Shown piece by piece: positions 3,416 through 10,984 of a stretch of DNA of 32,545 nucleotides. The position numbers were made by a program, and so were the translations under genes. A model generated the notes under the pieces. That model ran no database searches, was not told the origin of the DNA, and saw only the letters and a program-made list of their open reading frames with translations. This DNA comes from Acaryochloris sp. IP29b_bin.176 (GTDB taxonomy: Bacteria; Cyanobacteriota; Cyanobacteriia; Thermosynechococcales; Thermosynechococcaceae), in NCBI GenBank assembly GCA_028285315.1, contig JANQPU010000161.1, forward strand, positions 1-32,545, written 5' to 3'. Position 1 is the stretch's first letter; each line of letters starts with the position of its first letter.

Positions 3416-4783
3416 CTATTTGCCAATGCAAAATCGACTAAAAATTCGGTCGAGAACGGATTCAGTAATGTCTTCTCCGGTAATTTCACCCAAGGCTTGA
3501 ATCGCTCCTCGCAAGTCTATCGTCCAGAAATCTAAGGGAAGCTGATCTGCGATCGCACCCTGAACATGCTCTAAAGCAGTTTGGGCTTTTTGCAATGCTG
3601 CGGCCTGTCGCTGATTAATCGCCCAATCTAAATTGGCAGCTTGCAGAGACTGGGTTTGCATCGTAGCCAAAATCGCCTCTTCAAGTTTGGTAATCCCCTT
3701 ATTTTGGGCAGCAATAGTCGGCACCACCTGAGTAATTGCATCTGGATAGATCACCTTCTCTTTGGGGACTAAATCCACCTTATTAATAATCAAAATCATC
3801 GGTAGATCTTGGAATGCTTGATAGAGATGCTGATCGTCAGAGGTCCATCCAGCCGAGGCGTCTATGGTGAGCAAGACTAAGTCAGCCGACTGGGCCGCTT
3901 GGTGCGATCGCGTTACGCCAATTTGCTCGACCTGATCTTCTGTTTCTCTAATTCCGGCGGTATCCAACACCTGAACGGGAATTCCCCCCACCACTAACTG
4001 GGACTCCACCACATCCCGCGTGGTACCGGGGAGGTCTGTAACGATGGCGCGATCGCATCGACACCAAGCATTTAACAGGCTCGACTTGCCCACATTCGGA
4101 CGACCAATAATTGCTACTTTTAGACCATTTCGCAGCAATTCCCCCTGATCTGCCGTGGCTAAGATCGCTTGCAGGGTTGCTTGAATTTCCTGCAATTCTG
4201 TTTGTACAGCGACTTCATCTAAGGGGGGTAAATCATCCTCAAAGTCGACTCTGGCCTCCACTTCCGCTAGCGTATCCAGACAGCGTTGTCGCAACTGCCG
4301 AATCGGTTCTGCCAGCTTGCCCTGGACACCCGCTAGAGCCGCCTGTGCTGCTTGCAGAGAACGAGCCCCCACTAGATCCGCCACCCCTTCTGCTTGAGTT
4401 AAATCCAAGCGACCGTTCAAGAAGGCTCTGAGAGTAAACTCCCCAGGCTGAGCTAGTTCTGCCCCTGACTGCAAACAAGCCTCTAGCACCTGTTGAACAG
4501 CAATCATTCCCCCGTGACAATGAAACTCGACCACATCCTCACGAGTATAAGAACGAGGTGCCAGCATCAACAGTAACAAAGCTTCATCAATCACCTGCTG
4601 CGTGACGGGATTGTGAATGTAACCATAAAGAACCCGATGACTCTTCCACGGCTGGTTACCCGGTGCCTGAAAGAGCTGCTTTGCAATCGATACTGCATTT
4701 GCACCAGACAGGCGAACGATACCAATACTGCCCTGTTGGGGAACAATAGCGGTTGCGATCGCCGCGATCGTAGTTTGCTTCAT
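3416..4783 (-). CDS. mnmE: tRNA modification GTPase MnmE
   Basis: MnmE works with MnmG to install the cmnm5 group on the wobble uridine of certain tRNAs, using methylene-tetrahydrofolate and GTP hydrolysis. At 455 residues it has normal length. The N-terminal folate-binding domain starts IAAIATA, the helical domain follows, and the inserted G domain carries the P-loop GRPNVGKS (227-234), DLPGTTRD (250-257), DTAG (274-277) and NKVD. The invariant C-terminal CIGK, with the catalytic-region Cys452, is present. The gene stands alone; rsmG is 6 kb away in a different unit and mnmG is not in the window. Its 5' end faces the gene at 5013, giving a divergent promoter region of about 230 bases. Confidence 0.97.
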
Positions 4784-5012: not shown

Positions 5013-6005
5013 ATGCCCAGTCAAGTTGAATATAAAACAACACGCCGGTTCATGAATATTTGGGTCTACTTGGCCCTCGGCGCCGTGGGTATGATCATTT
5101 TGGCAGGTTTGAGTTCTATCTTTTTTGTCAAACCCTTAGCCTCCAAAACCTTGCAGGCCCGAGAAGGGGAACCCGCTCGATTACAGCCCATCAAAATTAA
5201 ACCCCAAGCGATCGGAGCGCTTAGAGTGGATGTCACCGCCAGAATTCCCACCAATCGCTGGCTCGCCTATGAAGTTCAAATCCGAGATCAGCAAGACAAA
5301 ATCTTGGCCGCAGGTCTCAAAAATGCCTGGAACGAATCAGGGATTTGGCGCGAAGACGGACAATCTGGAAGATGGCAAGAAGATGACTTAGATGCAGGAT
5401 TAGATATCAGTAGCACCAAGTCTGAACCGATTAATGTTGTGGTTGAGGTCCTAGAGTATGCCACCAAAAGCAACCAGCCCCTCACTGAGCCCGTATCCTT
5501 TCGTATTAGAGTCAACCAAGGCATTATTGACACTCGCTATTTATGGCCTGGTTTTTGGGGCGGATTATTGATGGCCGGTTTAACCTGCCTGTTTTCCAAG
5601 TCTGCTGGAGCGACCTTAAGCGATAAAAGCATTGGCGATAGCGATTTAGGAGACCGAGTCAATGCAGGCGGTGCCAACAAACTGATCAAAGTTGTCGTCA
5701 AAACCGTGGCTGATGAAACTTCACCTTCATCTCTCAACTGTCGACTCATGGTCAGAGATGGCAATGGCGATCAGCTTTTTAATGCCTCTGCAGTCATGCC
5801 CCTCAAATTCAAGCGTGATGAAGATGGCGATATTGACAGTACTCATGGTCAGGCCACGTTTTATCTCGTTTTGGAAAAACCCAGTTCTTACGGGTTCTAT
5901 GTAGAAGTCACTCCCGATGCTCCTGTAGATTCTACGCGGCTGATCATCAAACAAGGCGCAGTGACGTTAGGGGCCGTCAAGGTCGCGTATATTGGCGCAA
6001 CCTGA
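5013..6005 (+). CDS. Two-span membrane protein with an extracytoplasmic beta-rich domain
   Basis: A 330-residue protein without a domain name I can give. A hydrophobic segment at about 15-38 and a second at about 176-196 bracket a soluble, probably periplasmic region of about 135 residues. That region is rich in alternating strands and has a Trp/Asp/Gly cluster at 106-130 (including GIWREDGQSGRW). After the second span, a Gly/Ser/Asp linker leads to a C-terminal domain (about 223-330), also beta-rich, ending in VKVAYIGAT. It is the first gene of a four-gene plus-strand cluster with spacings of roughly 10 to 50 bases, so it probably acts with the synthase-like enzyme and the DUF4178 protein. 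Start ATG chosen as the only one before the first membrane span. Confidence 0.75.
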   Translation: MPSQVEYKTTRRFMNIWVYLALGAVGMIILAGLSSIFFVKPLASKTLQAREGEPARLQPIKIKPQAIGALRVDVTARIPTNRWLAYEVQIRDQQDKILAAGLKNAWNESGIWREDGQSGRWQEDDLDAGLDISSTKSEPINVVVEVLEYATKSNQPLTEPVSFRIRVNQGIIDTRYLWPGFWGGLLMAGLTCLFSKSAGATLSDKSIGDSDLGDRVNAGGANKLIKVVVKTVADETSPSSLNCRLMVRDGNGDQLFNASAVMPLKFKRDEDGDIDSTHGQATFYLVLEKPSSYGFYVEVTPDAPVDSTRLIIKQGAVTLGAVKVAYIGAT

Positions 6006-6052
6006 AGCCAGCCCTGCTCCCATAGGTGCAGCTCGATTTTTTCTCATTTAGG

Positions 6053-6307
6053 ATGACAGTAGCAACCTTTTTAACTATGCTGACAAAACTTTTCTCAGTT
6101 GCAACCATCGGCATTGTAGCCGCTTCCATTTTGGCTGCATATACCCAGCGTTCCGCTTTTCAACTCCGGCAAGAGCGCCAACCCAATTATTGGGCACGTC
6201 GAGGCACCCGGACCTCAGGACGCTATCGTGGCGGTGTTTGGGTCGTCTCCCCCGCCCGGTCATCCTATAGTGGATTCCGGGGCGGCAGTCTGGGTATGGG
6301 TAAGTAA
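6053..6307 (+). CDS. Small exported Arg/Gly/Ser-rich protein
   Basis: An 84-residue product from the ATG at 6053. The frame extends upstream to a GTG at 6026, and another ATG lies at 6077; none has a strong Shine-Dalgarno, and I chose 6053 because a short TTTAGG precedes it and it gives a good signal sequence. Residues about 8-29 are hydrophobic and end in ILAAYTQ, suggesting export or a membrane anchor. The mature part is basic and rich in Arg, Gly and Ser and ends SGFRGGSLGMGK. Short exported proteins with Gly-rich tails (DUF4247-like) are known beside spermidine synthase-like and DUF4178 genes; that this is one of them is inference. Only 8 bases separate it from the next gene. Confidence 0.6.
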   Translation: MTVATFLTMLTKLFSVATIGIVAASILAAYTQRSAFQLRQERQPNYWARRGTRTSGRYRGGVWVVSPARSSYSGFRGGSLGMGK

Positions 6308-6315
6308 ACCGTTAT

Positions 6316-7884
6316 ATGTCTGGGTCAGAGCCAACCTCTGCGGCATTCCAGAGATCTGAGCCTACTCCCCTCACCTCTCCTCAGCAACGCTGGTTATTAG
6401 CAGCGGCTGCGATCTCTTCTAGCGTTGGCTTAGCCGCAGAACTACTCTTAGGGACGCTGGCAAGCTACCTAGTGGGCAATACCGCTTTAGCGTATGGCGT
6501 AGCCGTGGGCGGCTTTCTAGCAGCAATGGGCTTGGGAGCCTACATTAGCCAGTTCATTGCCGTTGACAATCAACAACGCCAGCTCCTCAAAGTTTTTTTG
6601 CAAATTGAGCTGCTGATTGCCCCTTTAACGGCTGGCTTACCGATCGGGTTATTCGTTGTTTTTGTCGCAGATGGGCCAATTTGGCTGGGGCTCTTTTTGG
6701 TAACCCTAATTTTGGGCATTCTCTCGGGCCTCGAAGTTCCCATCTTGACGCGCATTATTGAACAAGATCACGACGTTAAATTCGCCCTGGCTGGTGTCTT
6801 GGCCTTAGATTATGTTGGCGCATTAATTGGATCTCTGGCGTTCCCCGTCCTGTTTCTACCCCTCCTGGGATTATTTCCCACCGCCGTACTGATCGGATCA
6901 TTGCCTGCCTTCGTGGTGTTCCGATTAGGACGTTTATTTCGGGGTATGCGGTCCTGGAGCTACTGGGGCCTCTGCATCGGCCTTGGATTATGTGTGTTTG
7001 CCCCGTTCGTGATTCCGTTTAGCGATCGCTTAGAAAATACCCTCTACAAAGCCCCCATTGTCACTCGCATTCAGTCCAATTACCAGCGCATTGTCCTCAC
7101 CCGCTCTGGCAATGACACAAGATTATTTCTCGATGGCGATCTCCAGCTTTCAACCGTCGATGAATACCGCTATCACGAAGCCCTAGTCCATCCAGCCCTA
7201 AGTACCAATTTCCAGCGACGCCATATTCTGGTGCTTGGAGCCGGTGATGGCATGGCCTTACGGGAAATTCTTAAATGGCCGGAAGTTGAAAAAGTTGTGC
7301 TGATTGAACTGGATCCTGCTGTCGTGAAATTAGCTCGTCAGTATCCTGTACTCGCTGAGAGCAATGCTCATGCCCTAGATGATCCACGAGTAGAAGTGAT
7401 CTTTGGAGATGCCTTTAAGCTAGCGCCCCAACTGCCAGACACGTTTGACGTGATCATCGCCGATTTTCCCGACCCCGATCGCCCTGCCCTCGCCAAGCTC
7501 TACTCCCAAGGGTTCTATCGACAACTTCTCTCTCGCCTCGTCCCCCAAGGCATCTTTGTCACCCAGGCTTCTAGTCCTTTCTTTGCCCCCAAGGTGATGG
7601 ATTGTATCGCTACCACCCTTACAGCGACGGACTTACAAGTCTATCCCTACACCGTAAACGTGCCGAGCTTTGGCCCCTGGGGATTTGTATTGGCCTCGCC
7701 AGAGCCCGTACAGTTGTCGCCCGAGAACTTAACGATTCCCACTCGGTTCCTGACGCCAGCTTTGCTCCCCGAACTCTTTCAACTTCCCGCAGATATTTCC
7801 ATTGGTAAAGCCAAGATCAATCGGCTCACCGATCCAGTTATAGTTCAGTACCAAGCCGATCCTCGTTGGTCGGCCTATTATTGA
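6316..7884 (+). CDS. Spermidine synthase-like enzyme with N-terminal membrane domain
   Basis: A 522-residue fusion. Residues 1-235 contain about seven hydrophobic spans. Residues about 240-500 form a polyamine aminopropyltransferase-type Rossmann domain: YQRIVL (256-261), FLDGDLQLS (271-279), DEYRYHE (282-288), the SAM-type loop LGAGDG (307-312), the acidic ELD (331-333) and IADFPDPDRP (381-390), where D383 occupies the place of the catalytic Asp. Classical spermidine synthases have DSTDP or DSSDP there; the DFPDP form marks the membrane-fused subgroup. It may transfer an aminopropyl group from decarboxylated SAM to an unknown amine, perhaps one delivered at the membrane. No SAM decarboxylase gene is in the window. 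It shares a cluster with the DUF4178 gene downstream. Confidence 0.88.
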   Translation: MSGSEPTSAAFQRSEPTPLTSPQQRWLLAAAAISSSVGLAAELLLGTLASYLVGNTALAYGVAVGGFLAAMGLGAYISQFIAVDNQQRQLLKVFLQIELLIAPLTAGLPIGLFVVFVADGPIWLGLFLVTLILGILSGLEVPILTRIIEQDHDVKFALAGVLALDYVGALIGSLAFPVLFLPLLGLFPTAVLIGSLPAFVVFRLGRLFRGMRSWSYWGLCIGLGLCVFAPFVIPFSDRLENTLYKAPIVTRIQSNYQRIVLTRSGNDTRLFLDGDLQLSTVDEYRYHEALVHPALSTNFQRRHILVLGAGDGMALREILKWPEVEKVVLIELDPAVVKLARQYPVLAESNAHALDDPRVEVIFGDAFKLAPQLPDTFDVIIADFPDPDRPALAKLYSQGFYRQLLSRLVPQGIFVTQASSPFFAPKVMDCIATTLTATDLQVYPYTVNVPSFGPWGFVLASPEPVQLSPENLTIPTRFLTPALLPELFQLPADISIGKAKINRLTDPVIVQYQADPRWSAYY

Positions 7885-7903
7885 AGCACTCTAGAGGCAG
7901 ACT

Positions 7904-8497
7904 ATGGCTTACCTTTGGTTATTCATCATTATCATGGGCGTTCTGGGGGTTTTCCTGTACATGAGACAGCAATCCGGTAAATCCCTCCCTTTTGCATCCC
8001 AGCCCCAAGCATTGCCATCCCTTGAACGTACCGTCTTTACCCTAGAAGTGGGCGATATTGTCCAATATATGGGGACAGACTGGGTGGTTGAAGGCAAACT
8101 GATATATGGCGACCAAGGCTACTCCTGGTTAGAGTATCTGCTTCAAGATGGCAACCGCCGTCAATGGCTGTCTGTGGAAGAGGATGATGTGGTTGAAGTG
8201 GCGCTTTTGGAAGTCACCACTGCTCTAGAAGTCGGCACCAATCCTCCCCCTGAACTGACCTTCGCCAATGAAACCTATCGTCATAAAGGATCGGGCATAG
8301 CGCAAATGACCCGCAAAGGGTCTACCCTTAATCGCAATGCTGAACGGTGCCAATATTTTGACTATCAGGGACCCGATAATAAAATCCTATCCATCGAAAA
8401 CTGGGATGGCGATATTGAAGTCACCATCGGCCAAAAAATTCATCCCTCAGTGCTAACGCTACTCCCTGGCGATGGTCGGCGCATTTATGGGACTTAA
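7904..8497 (+). CDS. DUF4178-domain protein with N-terminal anchor
   Basis: A 197-residue protein. Residues about 2-18 form one membrane span (LWLFIIIMGVLGVFLY). The rest is a beta-rich soluble domain that I read as DUF4178: LEVGDIVQYMGTDWVVEG (from about 48), then the SWLEYLLQDG and QWLSVEEDD elements, and a second half with FDYQGPDNKILSIENWDGD. The biochemical role of DUF4178 is unknown. It recurs beside spermidine synthase-like and small exported genes in other bacteria, matching this cluster. It starts 19 bases after the synthase gene and is the last member; an 87-base gap follows before bioB. Confidence 0.8.
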   Translation: MAYLWLFIIIMGVLGVFLYMRQQSGKSLPFASQPQALPSLERTVFTLEVGDIVQYMGTDWVVEGKLIYGDQGYSWLEYLLQDGNRRQWLSVEEDDVVEVALLEVTTALEVGTNPPPELTFANETYRHKGSGIAQMTRKGSTLNRNAERCQYFDYQGPDNKILSIENWDGDIEVTIGQKIHPSVLTLLPGDGRRIYGT

Positions 8498-8584: not shown

Positions 8585-9661
8585 ATGGGCAGCGATTTTA
8601 ATGAGTGGGTCAAAATCGCCTTGTCAGACGAAACTTTCCCCCGCACCTTTGCCCTAGCCATATTAGCCGACCCCGACATCGATCTGCTGCCCTTGGTTAC
8701 AGCAGCCGGAGAAGTGCGGATGGCCTATTTTGGTCGGCAGGTCATGCTGCATCGCATCAATGATATCCAAAACGGGCTGTGTCCAGAAGATTGCGGCTAT
8801 TGCGCTCAGTCGAAGATTTCTGAAGCCCCGATCAAAAAATACCCCCTGAAAAGCGAAGAGGACATTATTCAAGAAGCCCACGCGGCCAAAGCTAAAGGAG
8901 TCTACCGATATTGCATGGTATCTAGCGGCAGAGGACCTACGGCAGAGCGAACTCAACACTTAGCTCACATCATTCGACGCATTAAAACTGAGGTGGGTAT
9001 TCAAACCTGTCTCTCCGCAGGCTTGATGGACCAAGAACAAGCCACCGTTCTCAAAGAAGCTGGACTCGATCGACTCAACCACAATCTCAACACTAGTGAG
9101 GCTCATACCCCTGATATTGTTACCACTCATACGTTTCAAGATCGGATCAACACCTTAAAAGCAGCTCGTTCAGCTGGTTTAGATTTATGCAGTGGCATGA
9201 TTGCAGGCATGGGGGAGACTGACCAAGATATTGTCGATGTTGCTTATCATCTGCACGAGTATCAAGTGCCGTCCATTCCCATCAACTTCCTCATTCCCAT
9301 TTCTGGAAACCCCATTTATGACTGCAACCAGCTCACCCCCCAGCGCTGTTTGCGCATTCTTTGCATGTTCCGATTTGTGAATCCCAAAGCTGAAATTCGG
9401 ATTGGGGGTGGACGAGAAGGTCATCTCAGGGGCCTACAAGCTTTAGCCCTCTATCCGACCAATTCCCTCTTTGTTGAAGGCTACTTAGCCACGAGGGGGC
9501 ATAGCCTCGATCAAGTCTACCAACTCATTCATGATGCCGGTTTCGAAGTCGCTGGGGATGTATCACTGAGCCGCGATCTCACTTCAACATCTCATTTCCA
9601 GTTGGATGACAATCCCGATATTCTAAACCCACAAACCACAATCAGTTCTCCCAGCCCATGA
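8585..9661 (+). CDS. bioB: Biotin synthase
   Basis: BioB is a radical-SAM enzyme that inserts sulfur into dethiobiotin, the last step of biotin synthesis. The 358-residue protein has the cluster motif CPEDCGYC (C66, C70, C73), with C110 near YRYCMVSSGRGP as a probable ligand of the sacrificial 2Fe-2S cluster, the GLDRLNHNLNTS element and IRIGGGRE. The C-terminal about 25 residues are a Thr/Ser/Asn-rich tail. Other bio genes are not in the window, as is common in cyanobacteria. A hairpin follows about 30 bases after the stop. Confidence 0.97.
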   Translation: MGSDFNEWVKIALSDETFPRTFALAILADPDIDLLPLVTAAGEVRMAYFGRQVMLHRINDIQNGLCPEDCGYCAQSKISEAPIKKYPLKSEEDIIQEAHAAKAKGVYRYCMVSSGRGPTAERTQHLAHIIRRIKTEVGIQTCLSAGLMDQEQATVLKEAGLDRLNHNLNTSEAHTPDIVTTHTFQDRINTLKAARSAGLDLCSGMIAGMGETDQDIVDVAYHLHEYQVPSIPINFLIPISGNPIYDCNQLTPQRCLRILCMFRFVNPKAEIRIGGGREGHLRGLQALALYPTNSLFVEGYLATRGHSLDQVYQLIHDAGFEVAGDVSLSRDLTSTSHFQLDDNPDILNPQTTISSPSP

Positions 9662-9817: not shown

Positions 9818-10384
9818 TTAGCGTGTGCGATTCATTTTTCGTCGAGCTAACACACCAGCAATTCCTAAGCTAGCAAATAGACCAGCGGTAGCTGCTTCAG
9901 CAGGTTCAGGAACGCTAGGGGGGGTGGTTGCTGGATCGTCATCGTCTCCAATAACGAAAGGAAGTGCCGCAGCTGCGGCACCTGCTGGAATCAATGCAGC
10001 AGCCAGAGGGAATCCAGCCGCCGCAGGAAGGCCACCTTCAGGGGCAATGCCACCGATTCCACAATCAAGCATTCCATCCTCGGCAATTAGAGTTTGAGAT
10101 AACAACAGCCCAGTTGATACATCGGAGGTAGAGGCATTAGCCATCAAATTGGGTCCCAGAGATTGGCTCAACGGACCAGATGGCTCCTGCAGAGCTTCTG
10201 GTGAAATAATAGGCTCTTCTTCACAAATATCACTTTGTGCTGTATCTGTGCTTAGATTCGAGTCCAACCCTACAGAATCTCCAAGGCCGAGCTGCGCAGC
10301 ATGGCTAAAGGGAGCACTGATAGCGTTATAGAGAGCTATCAGCGTTAAGGCAGTCAATGAGCCAGGAATTCTTAACAATTTCAT
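9818..10384 (-). CDS. Exported PEP-CTERM protein
   Basis: A 188-residue product. The frame opens further upstream, but the ATG at 10384 is preceded by AAGGAG twelve bases away and starts a clean signal peptide (MKLLRIPGSLTALTLIALY, cut near SHAA). The C-terminus has the PEP-CTERM sorting signal: SVPEPAE, a hydrophobic stretch GLFASLGIAGVLA, and a basic end RRKMNRTR. Such proteins are thought to be processed by an exosortase and moved to the cell surface or envelope; no exosortase gene lies here. The middle is low in complexity, with an Ala/Gly/Pro-rich stretch and a DDDD acidic run. Apart from the sorting signal no domain is visible. It is a lone gene facing away from the 600-base gap upstream. 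Confidence 0.85.
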   Translation of the reverse strand: MKLLRIPGSLTALTLIALYNAISAPFSHAAQLGLGDSVGLDSNLSTDTAQSDICEEEPIISPEALQEPSGPLSQSLGPNLMANASTSDVSTGLLLSQTLIAEDGMLDCGIGGIAPEGGLPAAAGFPLAAALIPAGAAAAALPFVIGDDDDPATTPPSVPEPAEAATAGLFASLGIAGVLARRKMNRTR

Positions 10385-10984
10385 AGTTGAAATTCGCTCC
10401 TTAGACGATTTGCCCCACGTAATATCGAATACGAAATTACCATAAACCCATAAAATGGGCTGTGTAAGCAACTACTTATAAAAATTTTCAGTTACTCGCT
10501 ACATTATGCCAAACAACACTGAAAAAGCAACCAGCGCGAATAAAAATAAGGTTTCAAATTATTTCATGGGGTAATTTATAGGGCGCAGGCTCACGGGCAT
10601 TGACAAAAATTTAGTAAACCTTAATCTCTCGGATCATAAGCCAAAGATTTTCTCTTTTTGAGCTTTGAGGCTAGTCGTTGTGCTGCATTGCCCAACCCAT
10701 AAGATCAAAAACTGTAGAATTTTAAGCACCTTCAAGTGAACGGCCATCTGGATTGTCATCCGTTCACTTAAACGCAGACAAAGCTAGTGTCAACGACAAT
10801 GCTATTGCTGAACAATTGGTCCATCAAGTCTCAAAGACTTGGCAGAAACCATCTACTTTGCAGAAAAGCGCTGCTCAGGCCATGCATAGGGCCAACCTGT
10901 ATTGCATCTCTTTCCGCTTACGGTTAATCCTTTCCCTTATCCCGAACTCAGGTTAGGTGTATGGGAATAAATAGGTCTAAGAGT
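10385..10984. other. Intergenic region of about 600 bases between PEP-CTERM gene and rsmG
   Basis: This gap holds the leader of the PEP-CTERM gene and the 3' flank of rsmG. A plus-strand promoter-like pair is TTGACA (10600-10605), a 16-base spacer and TAATCT (10622-10627). A perfect 10-base inverted repeat, AAGTGAACGG (10734-10743) and CCGTTCACTT (10760-10769), follows about 110 bases later. An open frame from a TTG at 10753 (67 codons) starts inside that hairpin and has no ribosome binding site, so I do not call it. The arrangement could encode a small RNA, but nothing proves it. Confidence 0.4.

Follow-up and report, generated by a model that had tools for sequence, protein, structure and literature searches.

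What does an aminopropyltransferase fused to a seven-helix membrane domain act upon, and why is it encoded with the same small set of envelope proteins? The question is raised by four closely packed plus-strand genes, here called A, B, C and D, at positions 5013 to 8497 of contig JANQPU010000161.1 of Acaryochloris sp. IP29b_bin.176 (assembly GCA_028285315.1), whose positions 1 to 32,545 form the window analysed here. The original prediction, made from the sequence alone, had described a two-span protein with a beta-rich outer domain, a small exported Arg/Gly-rich protein, an aminopropyltransferase-like enzyme with about seven spans and an anchored DUF4178 protein, and had suggested that together they build or attach a polyamine-like group at the envelope. 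All four genes are present, with intergenic gaps of 71, 8 and 19 nt, and each has the character described. We propose, tentatively and with slightly less than even confidence, that the cluster is a membrane-bound protein-modification system, in which C aminopropylates the C-terminal lysine of the B tail from decarboxylated S-adenosylmethionine (dcSAM). The suggestion of a polyamine-like group thus survives as the best available reading, with a candidate acceptor and a membrane side added to it, while the two features that had been regarded as peculiar, the DFPDP motif of the enzyme and the missing SpeD gene, lose that status.

The proposal turns on the C-terminus of B (6077..6307, plus strand; 76 residues), which consists of one N-terminal transmembrane (TM) segment or signal anchor and an Arg/Gly/Ser-rich tail ending in SYSGFRGGSLGMGK, homologues favouring the ATG at 6077 over starts at 6026 or 6053. 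The final residues, GGSLGMGK, are encoded at 6281..6304 and the invariant terminal lysine at 6302-6304. For comparison, the best 80 loci were fetched from among 572 relatives confirmed by a genome scan, a set separate from the actinobacterial DUF4247-type operons (Rv2599-2601); the homologues are related by descent and do not represent independent samples. Counterparts of B were picked by position (between A or DUF4178 and DUF350 or C) and hydrophobicity alone, yielding 47 open reading frames (ORFs), 42 of which end in lysine compared to 4.7% in a background of 898 long ORFs. The five others proved to be wrong frames, and in each case the B of the right frame also ends in lysine. The residue before the terminal lysine of B and its counterparts is Gly, His or Ala, the usual ending being GGGPGSGK, and internal lysine is rare (14 lysines against 152 arginines in the last 24 residues of the tails). 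Since both lysine codons (AAG 22, AAA 20) and all three stops (TAA 19, TAG 15, TGA 13) are used, selection acts at the protein level.

The carrier of the tail changes from locus to locus. It is a separate protein in 52 cases and a fusion in 20, and no locus has both; at the 20 loci lacking a B gene, the DUF4178 protein itself includes a TM segment and a Gly/Ser tail whose last two residues are HK or GK. The carrier in Alteromonas is a 510-residue lipoprotein ending in NRGPSSGK, that in Poribacteria a 317-residue protein ending in GGGFGK, and one alphaproteobacterial tail ends in NRVK. For solitary C genes, the tail is encoded at another place in the genome, adjoining DUF4178 or A, although these look-ups targeted lysine ends and hence were not blind. 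A Lys-terminal tail was found for all 77 testable loci of the 80, the other three (L053, L073 and L080) being truncated by a contig end where the tail would lie and standing outside this count. The tail occurs in at least 11 phyla: Cyanobacteriota, Pseudomonadota, Myxococcota, Campylobacterota, Chloroflexota, Armatimonadota, Planctomycetota, Bacteroidota, Bacillota, Gemmatimonadota and Poribacteria. We regard the case for the terminal lysine as the candidate acceptor as moderate. At three loci (L036, L039 and L040), an 800-residue SppA-like protease comes after DUF4178, a small protein with a Lys tail and DUF350, and C is encoded at a different site of the genome.

The enzyme itself appears complete. 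Gene C (6316..7884, plus strand; 522 residues) encodes a seven-TM aminopropyltransferase (SpeE-7TM, PRK03612 type) that scores 553.5 bits against NCBIfam NF002956 'polyamine aminopropyltransferase' (PRK03612; curated cut-off 472) and matches Pfam PF01564 at 7e-39. Its AlphaFold model, built with 50 sequences (mean predicted local distance difference test score, pLDDT, 92.2), has exactly seven long helices (membrane domain 6376..7038, residues 21-241) ahead of the catalytic domain (7057..7881, residues 248-522). The latter superposes on Thermus SpeE (1uir; Z 35.8, root mean square deviation (rmsd) 2.9 over 277 residues) and Medicago thermospermine synthase MtTSPS (6bq6; Z 35.1, rmsd 1.7), in a PDB fold search whose matches were taken up by the catalytic domain and which barely probed the seven helices. 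The residues that bind dcSAM or deprotonate the acceptor, known from aminopropyltransferase structures (PMC6514230), are invariant in the family, among them the G-x-GDG donor site, the two Asp of the D-x-x-D-P catalytic loop and a Tyr, with D311, D365, D383, D386 and Y286 kept in all 50 homologues. The sequence D-F-P-D-P (7462-7476) does literally replace DSTDP, as originally noted, but it is no oddity: D-[F/L]-P-D-P, with both Asp retained, is found in 50 of 50 homologues across many phyla, so that the motif is the family norm and a degenerate or unusual active site is ruled out.

Nor does the enzyme lack a donor source. The window indeed contains no SAM decarboxylase gene, but on contig C305 of the source genome a SpeD-SpeE fusion is encoded, as is an agmatinase, so that neither dcSAM nor a conventional aminopropyltransferase is lacking. 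SpeD is a frequent neighbour of C: it lies within 7 kb in about 27 of the 80 related loci, shares an operon with C in Novosphingobium and Alteromonas, and is present in 27 of 31 cluster genomes; there is good reason to consider dcSAM the likely donor. The Alteromonas operon also contains a TelA-type toxic anion resistance gene (L163, 7467-8573) between speD and DUF4178.

Charge distribution points to the side of the membrane on which the reaction would take place. Loops 2/4/6 of C average 8.9 Lys plus Arg compared to 1.0 in loops 1/3/5, with the same sign in all 50 homologues; given seven helices and the positive-inside rule, the N-terminus is therefore predicted to be inside and the catalytic domain, following TM7, outside. 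Sequence and model together make a strong case that the catalytic domain would lie on the outer face of the membrane, on the same side as the tail. B has a short basic N-terminus followed by a hydrophobic segment, as in N-in/C-out anchors, although the charge of its C-flank is near neutral and so carries little weight for its orientation. The fused tails come after a TM segment that follows the presumably cytosolic DUF4178 domain, and the Alteromonas carrier has a lipobox. The membrane domain of C contains four conserved buried acids (E42 in 47, E98 in 44, and E140 and D165 in all of the 50 homologues) and no conserved buried base was found in the same 50; this combination would fit the passage of a dication such as dcSAM.

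Conservation of the cluster exceeds chance by far. The nearest relative found, Acaryochloris sp. CRU_2_0, has identical gene order, and the order A>B>C>D prevails in cyanobacteria, while other phyla display DUF4178 (or a DUF4178-A fusion) > B > DUF350 > C. Across the cyanobacterial phylum, 17 genomes contain both C and DUF4178, two C only, six DUF4178 only and 169 neither (Fisher p = 1.5e-17, without phylogenetic correction), and five of the six DUF4178-only genomes have a variant SpeE beside DUF4178. DUF4178 is also present, even when not adjacent, in all 16 SpeE-7TM genomes that were reached first via C and then checked whole. The recurrence of DUF4178 near SpeE-like genes, claimed originally, is thus borne out, and linkage was found where an absence of co-occurrence in relatives had been named beforehand as grounds for rejection. 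Some clusters also contain PspA, band-7, amine oxidase or pyridoxal phosphate (PLP) decarboxylase genes. Among the Campylobacterota loci L087, L088, L091, L103 and L108, L103 has a gene of the PLP decarboxylase family next to C and the others have genes of similar size there; ORFs of approximately 400 residues lie between C and D in L050, L053 and L055, and a transposase-like gene interrupts C in L031 (3865-6830, genome G066).

Five variant cyanobacterial clusters (L041, L042, L044, L045 and L046) contain DUF4178, a SpeE-like enzyme without the N-terminal TM domain, a FemAB-like transferase and DUF350. Their enzyme has the motif DFT[YCS]P and a Ser/Gly loop between two TM segments, and its second Asp is missing in the four of the five clusters where the motif was matched. 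A Gly/Ser tail with a final lysine is absent from all five; the variant SpeE ORFs of L044 and L045 do end in lysine, after the second TM segment and not in such a tail. Judged from these sequences, loss of the second Asp and loss of the tail appear correlated, which we count in favour of the proposed tail modification, a reading that as a whole we continue to hold at just under an even chance.

The two remaining proteins may position the reaction and report on it. Gene A (5013..6005, plus strand; 330 residues) is a two-span protein in its AlphaFold model (pLDDT 95.7), with TM helices at residues 16-37 and 174-195 enclosing an outer beta-sandwich (residues 40-171, nt 5130-5525), as had been suggested, and a second beta domain (residues 200-327), predicted to be cytoplasmic, which had gone unmentioned. 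No match to A, nor to B, was found in Pfam or NCBIfam profile searches; A is not an orphan, since more than 10 other proteins contain a homologue of its outer domain joined to DUF4178. A fold search of the PDB returned GOLD/p24-like domains (Z ~10.7), a subtilase C-terminal domain (Z 11.8) and other beta sandwiches, at Z 8-12, matches too general to indicate function; on its modelled structure the outer domain is a predicted binding module. Gene D (7904..8497, plus strand; 197 residues) is an N-terminally anchored DUF4178 protein (PF13785; 142.2 bits against a gathering cut-off of 25, 1.5e-41) with its domain predicted to be cytoplasmic. The cluster is flanked by the divergent mnmE (3416-4783, minus strand) and by bioB (8585-9661). 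Further along, a minus-strand gene (9818-10471) encodes an exported protein without a Pfam match, whose C-terminus, VPEPAEAATAGLFASLGIAGVLARRKMNRTR, resembles a PEP-CTERM sorting signal.

The mechanism that we propose starts from gene linkage, an intact catalytic site, an invariant terminal lysine and seven helices, all of which are shown at the level of alignments and predicted structures. SpeD elsewhere in the cell would make dcSAM; the seven-helix domain of C would bring this dicationic donor to, or across, the membrane, and the catalytic domain on the outer face would transfer its aminopropyl group. The aminopropyl group would be accepted by the terminal lysine of B, through its side-chain amine, at the end of a flexible Gly/Arg/Ser tail that lies outside while B shares the membrane with C. 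The product would be a tail ending in a polyamine-like N-aminopropyl-lysine group, of the same general type as deoxyhypusine or the peptide-spermidine conjugates of the sister Yjf/Ygi operons. The outer beta domain of A may hold or read the tail, and DUF4178 inside may report to the cytoplasmic side, where PspA or band-7 proteins would be its partners in other phyla. It is possible, though we are more doubtful of this wider claim, that C belongs to a widespread bacterial system of post-translational modification. In it, an aminopropyltransferase acting outside the cytoplasm would receive a SAM derivative, dcSAM, through its own seven helices and add aminopropyl (polyamine) units to the terminal lysine of tails on membrane-anchored proteins or lipoproteins. 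A physiological role in envelope protection is weakly suggested.

Several points weigh against the proposed modification. We know of no experiment showing aminopropylation of a protein by a SpeE-like enzyme, and an extracytoplasmic SAM-type enzyme needs export of its donor, for which no bacterial precedent is known to us. No SpeD was found in the Sulfurovum genome G303, a metagenome-assembled genome (MAG) that carries the cluster; the donor in Campylobacterota clusters may differ. In the complete cyanobacterial genome G121, C is present with no match to DUF4178 or A and no tail near C, and DUF350, usual in other clusters, was not found in the source genome, of which the assembly is 87% complete. 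Finally, the lysine of the tail could serve some other function, for instance attachment to peptidoglycan.

The explanation that survives best beside aminopropylation of the tail, which we nevertheless consider unlikely, is that C produces spermidine, thermospermine or a similar polyamine in free form at the membrane, and perhaps releases it outside, with the lysine tail, A and DUF4178 sensing or regulating the process. The complete fold, nearest to Thermus SpeE and plant thermospermine synthase, agrees with this, as do the NCBIfam name and the amine oxidase or PLP decarboxylase genes adjoining some clusters. However, the genome already has its SpeD-SpeE fusion and agmatinase, and an invariant terminal lysine on a carrier-switching tail is hard to explain as a sensor. 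The active site may also differ in its access: an N-terminal hairpin closes the polyamine groove in plant aminopropyltransferases (PMC6514230), and that of C appears, from alignment end points, approximately 15 residues shorter than in MtTSPS (241-254 compared to 26-54), so that a larger acceptor may be able to enter the groove, an observation that we also count on the side of the proposed tail modification.

Attachment of the terminal lysine to peptidoglycan by L,D-transpeptidases, in the manner of Braun's lipoprotein (Lpp), would fix the complex to the wall while C has some other substrate, and seems to us still less probable. It is general knowledge that Lpp is attached via the C-terminal lysine of an exported tail; YkuD enzymes are present in G000 and most cluster genomes, and a FemAB gene lies in the variant clusters. 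YkuD was not found in G307, G310 and G313, which as MAGs offer weak and not decisive evidence. This explanation leaves the strict link to an aminopropyltransferase unaccounted for, and the tails mostly end in Gly-Lys or His-Lys whereas Lpp, as is generally known, ends in Tyr-Arg-Lys.

An enzyme fused to seven helices, with a possibly open-ended groove, might instead aminopropylate a membrane lipid amine (phosphatidylethanolamine or an aminoacyl lipid), with the tail binding the modified head groups; linkage to PspA and band-7 membrane-stress genes in other phyla, seen among the loci here and in PMC11237479, agrees with this. The invariant terminal lysine is not predicted by such an activity. 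Cyanobacterial membranes, moreover, are generally known to consist mostly of amine-free glyco- and phosphatidylglycerol lipids, and we consider lipid modification improbable. A reading of C as a plain spermidine synthase of the soluble type, beside its neighbours by accident, is refuted, despite the shared catalytic fold, by its seven helices, the linkage across at least 11 phyla and co-occurrence at genome level.

Parts of the system have been noted before. The 2024 description of a PspA/CesT-linked operon (Ravi et al. 2024, PMC11237479) lists a 7TM spermidine-synthase-like protein, DUF350, a 'Ctha_1186' lipoprotein and DUF4178, of which the SpeE-7TM and DUF4178 families are common to it and the present cluster, and suggests polyamine monitoring or 'aminopropylation of other substrates' without assigning a function. 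Vampirovibrionia-type loci (L043, L047) approach that operon, with PspA adjacent in the order PspA-DUF4178-DUF350-A-B-C, whereas in the cyanobacterial operon PspA, CesT and DUF350 are missing and A is larger. The passages of the account consulted make no mention of a terminal lysine tail or of the membrane side of the catalytic domain, neither of which was found mentioned in the literature searched, where DUF4178 itself is mentioned only in PMC11237479. By sequence, C falls within the family NF002956/PRK03612, whose name implies a putative substrate.

The closest likeness in E. coli is to YjfIJKLMC and YgiBC. RefSeq annotates YgiC and YjfC as peptide-spermidine ligases, which were reportedly described by Pederick et al. 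in 2023. The YjfC operon contains PspA and DUF350, and YgiB (L169, 2745-3416) and YjfM (L170, 6388-7026), beside the ligases, are exported proteins with Gly/Ser/Arg-rich tails. The likeness thus comprises DUF350 and PspA partners (Yjf), an exported partner with a Gly/Ser/Arg tail, and polyamine chemistry. However, YjfC and YgiC are ATP-grasp ligases while the cluster enzyme is an aminopropyltransferase (no ATP-grasp match was found among the four cluster proteins in Pfam or NCBIfam), and the YgiB and YjfM tails end in Gly-Gly (..SSRSMGG and ..SSSARGHWGG) where B ends in Gly-Lys. Braun's lipoprotein, generally known as an exported protein with a functional C-terminal lysine, is likewise comparable, but B has no lipobox (no Cys) and no Lpp or any other Pfam match, and the terminal motif differs. 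Extension of a lysine side chain by a polyamine-derived unit is known from deoxyhypusine in eIF5A and from diatom silaffins, which involve other enzymes and other locations and serve as an analogy only.

Membrane-fused SpeE-like proteins accompanied by DUF4178 occur in at least 11 phyla with no established function, and databases name the enzyme as a polyamine synthase. An invariant C-terminal lysine that accompanies the enzyme while switching carrier provides a concrete and cheap handle on its role. If the proposal is true, it would mean a new protein modification and an enzyme that works with a SAM derivative on the outer side of the membrane. By analogy with YgiB and YjfM as putative substrates, polyamine chemistry at the C-terminal end of an exported protein would then have a parallel, and would constitute a theme common to this system and the peptide-spermidine ligase operons of E. 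coli.

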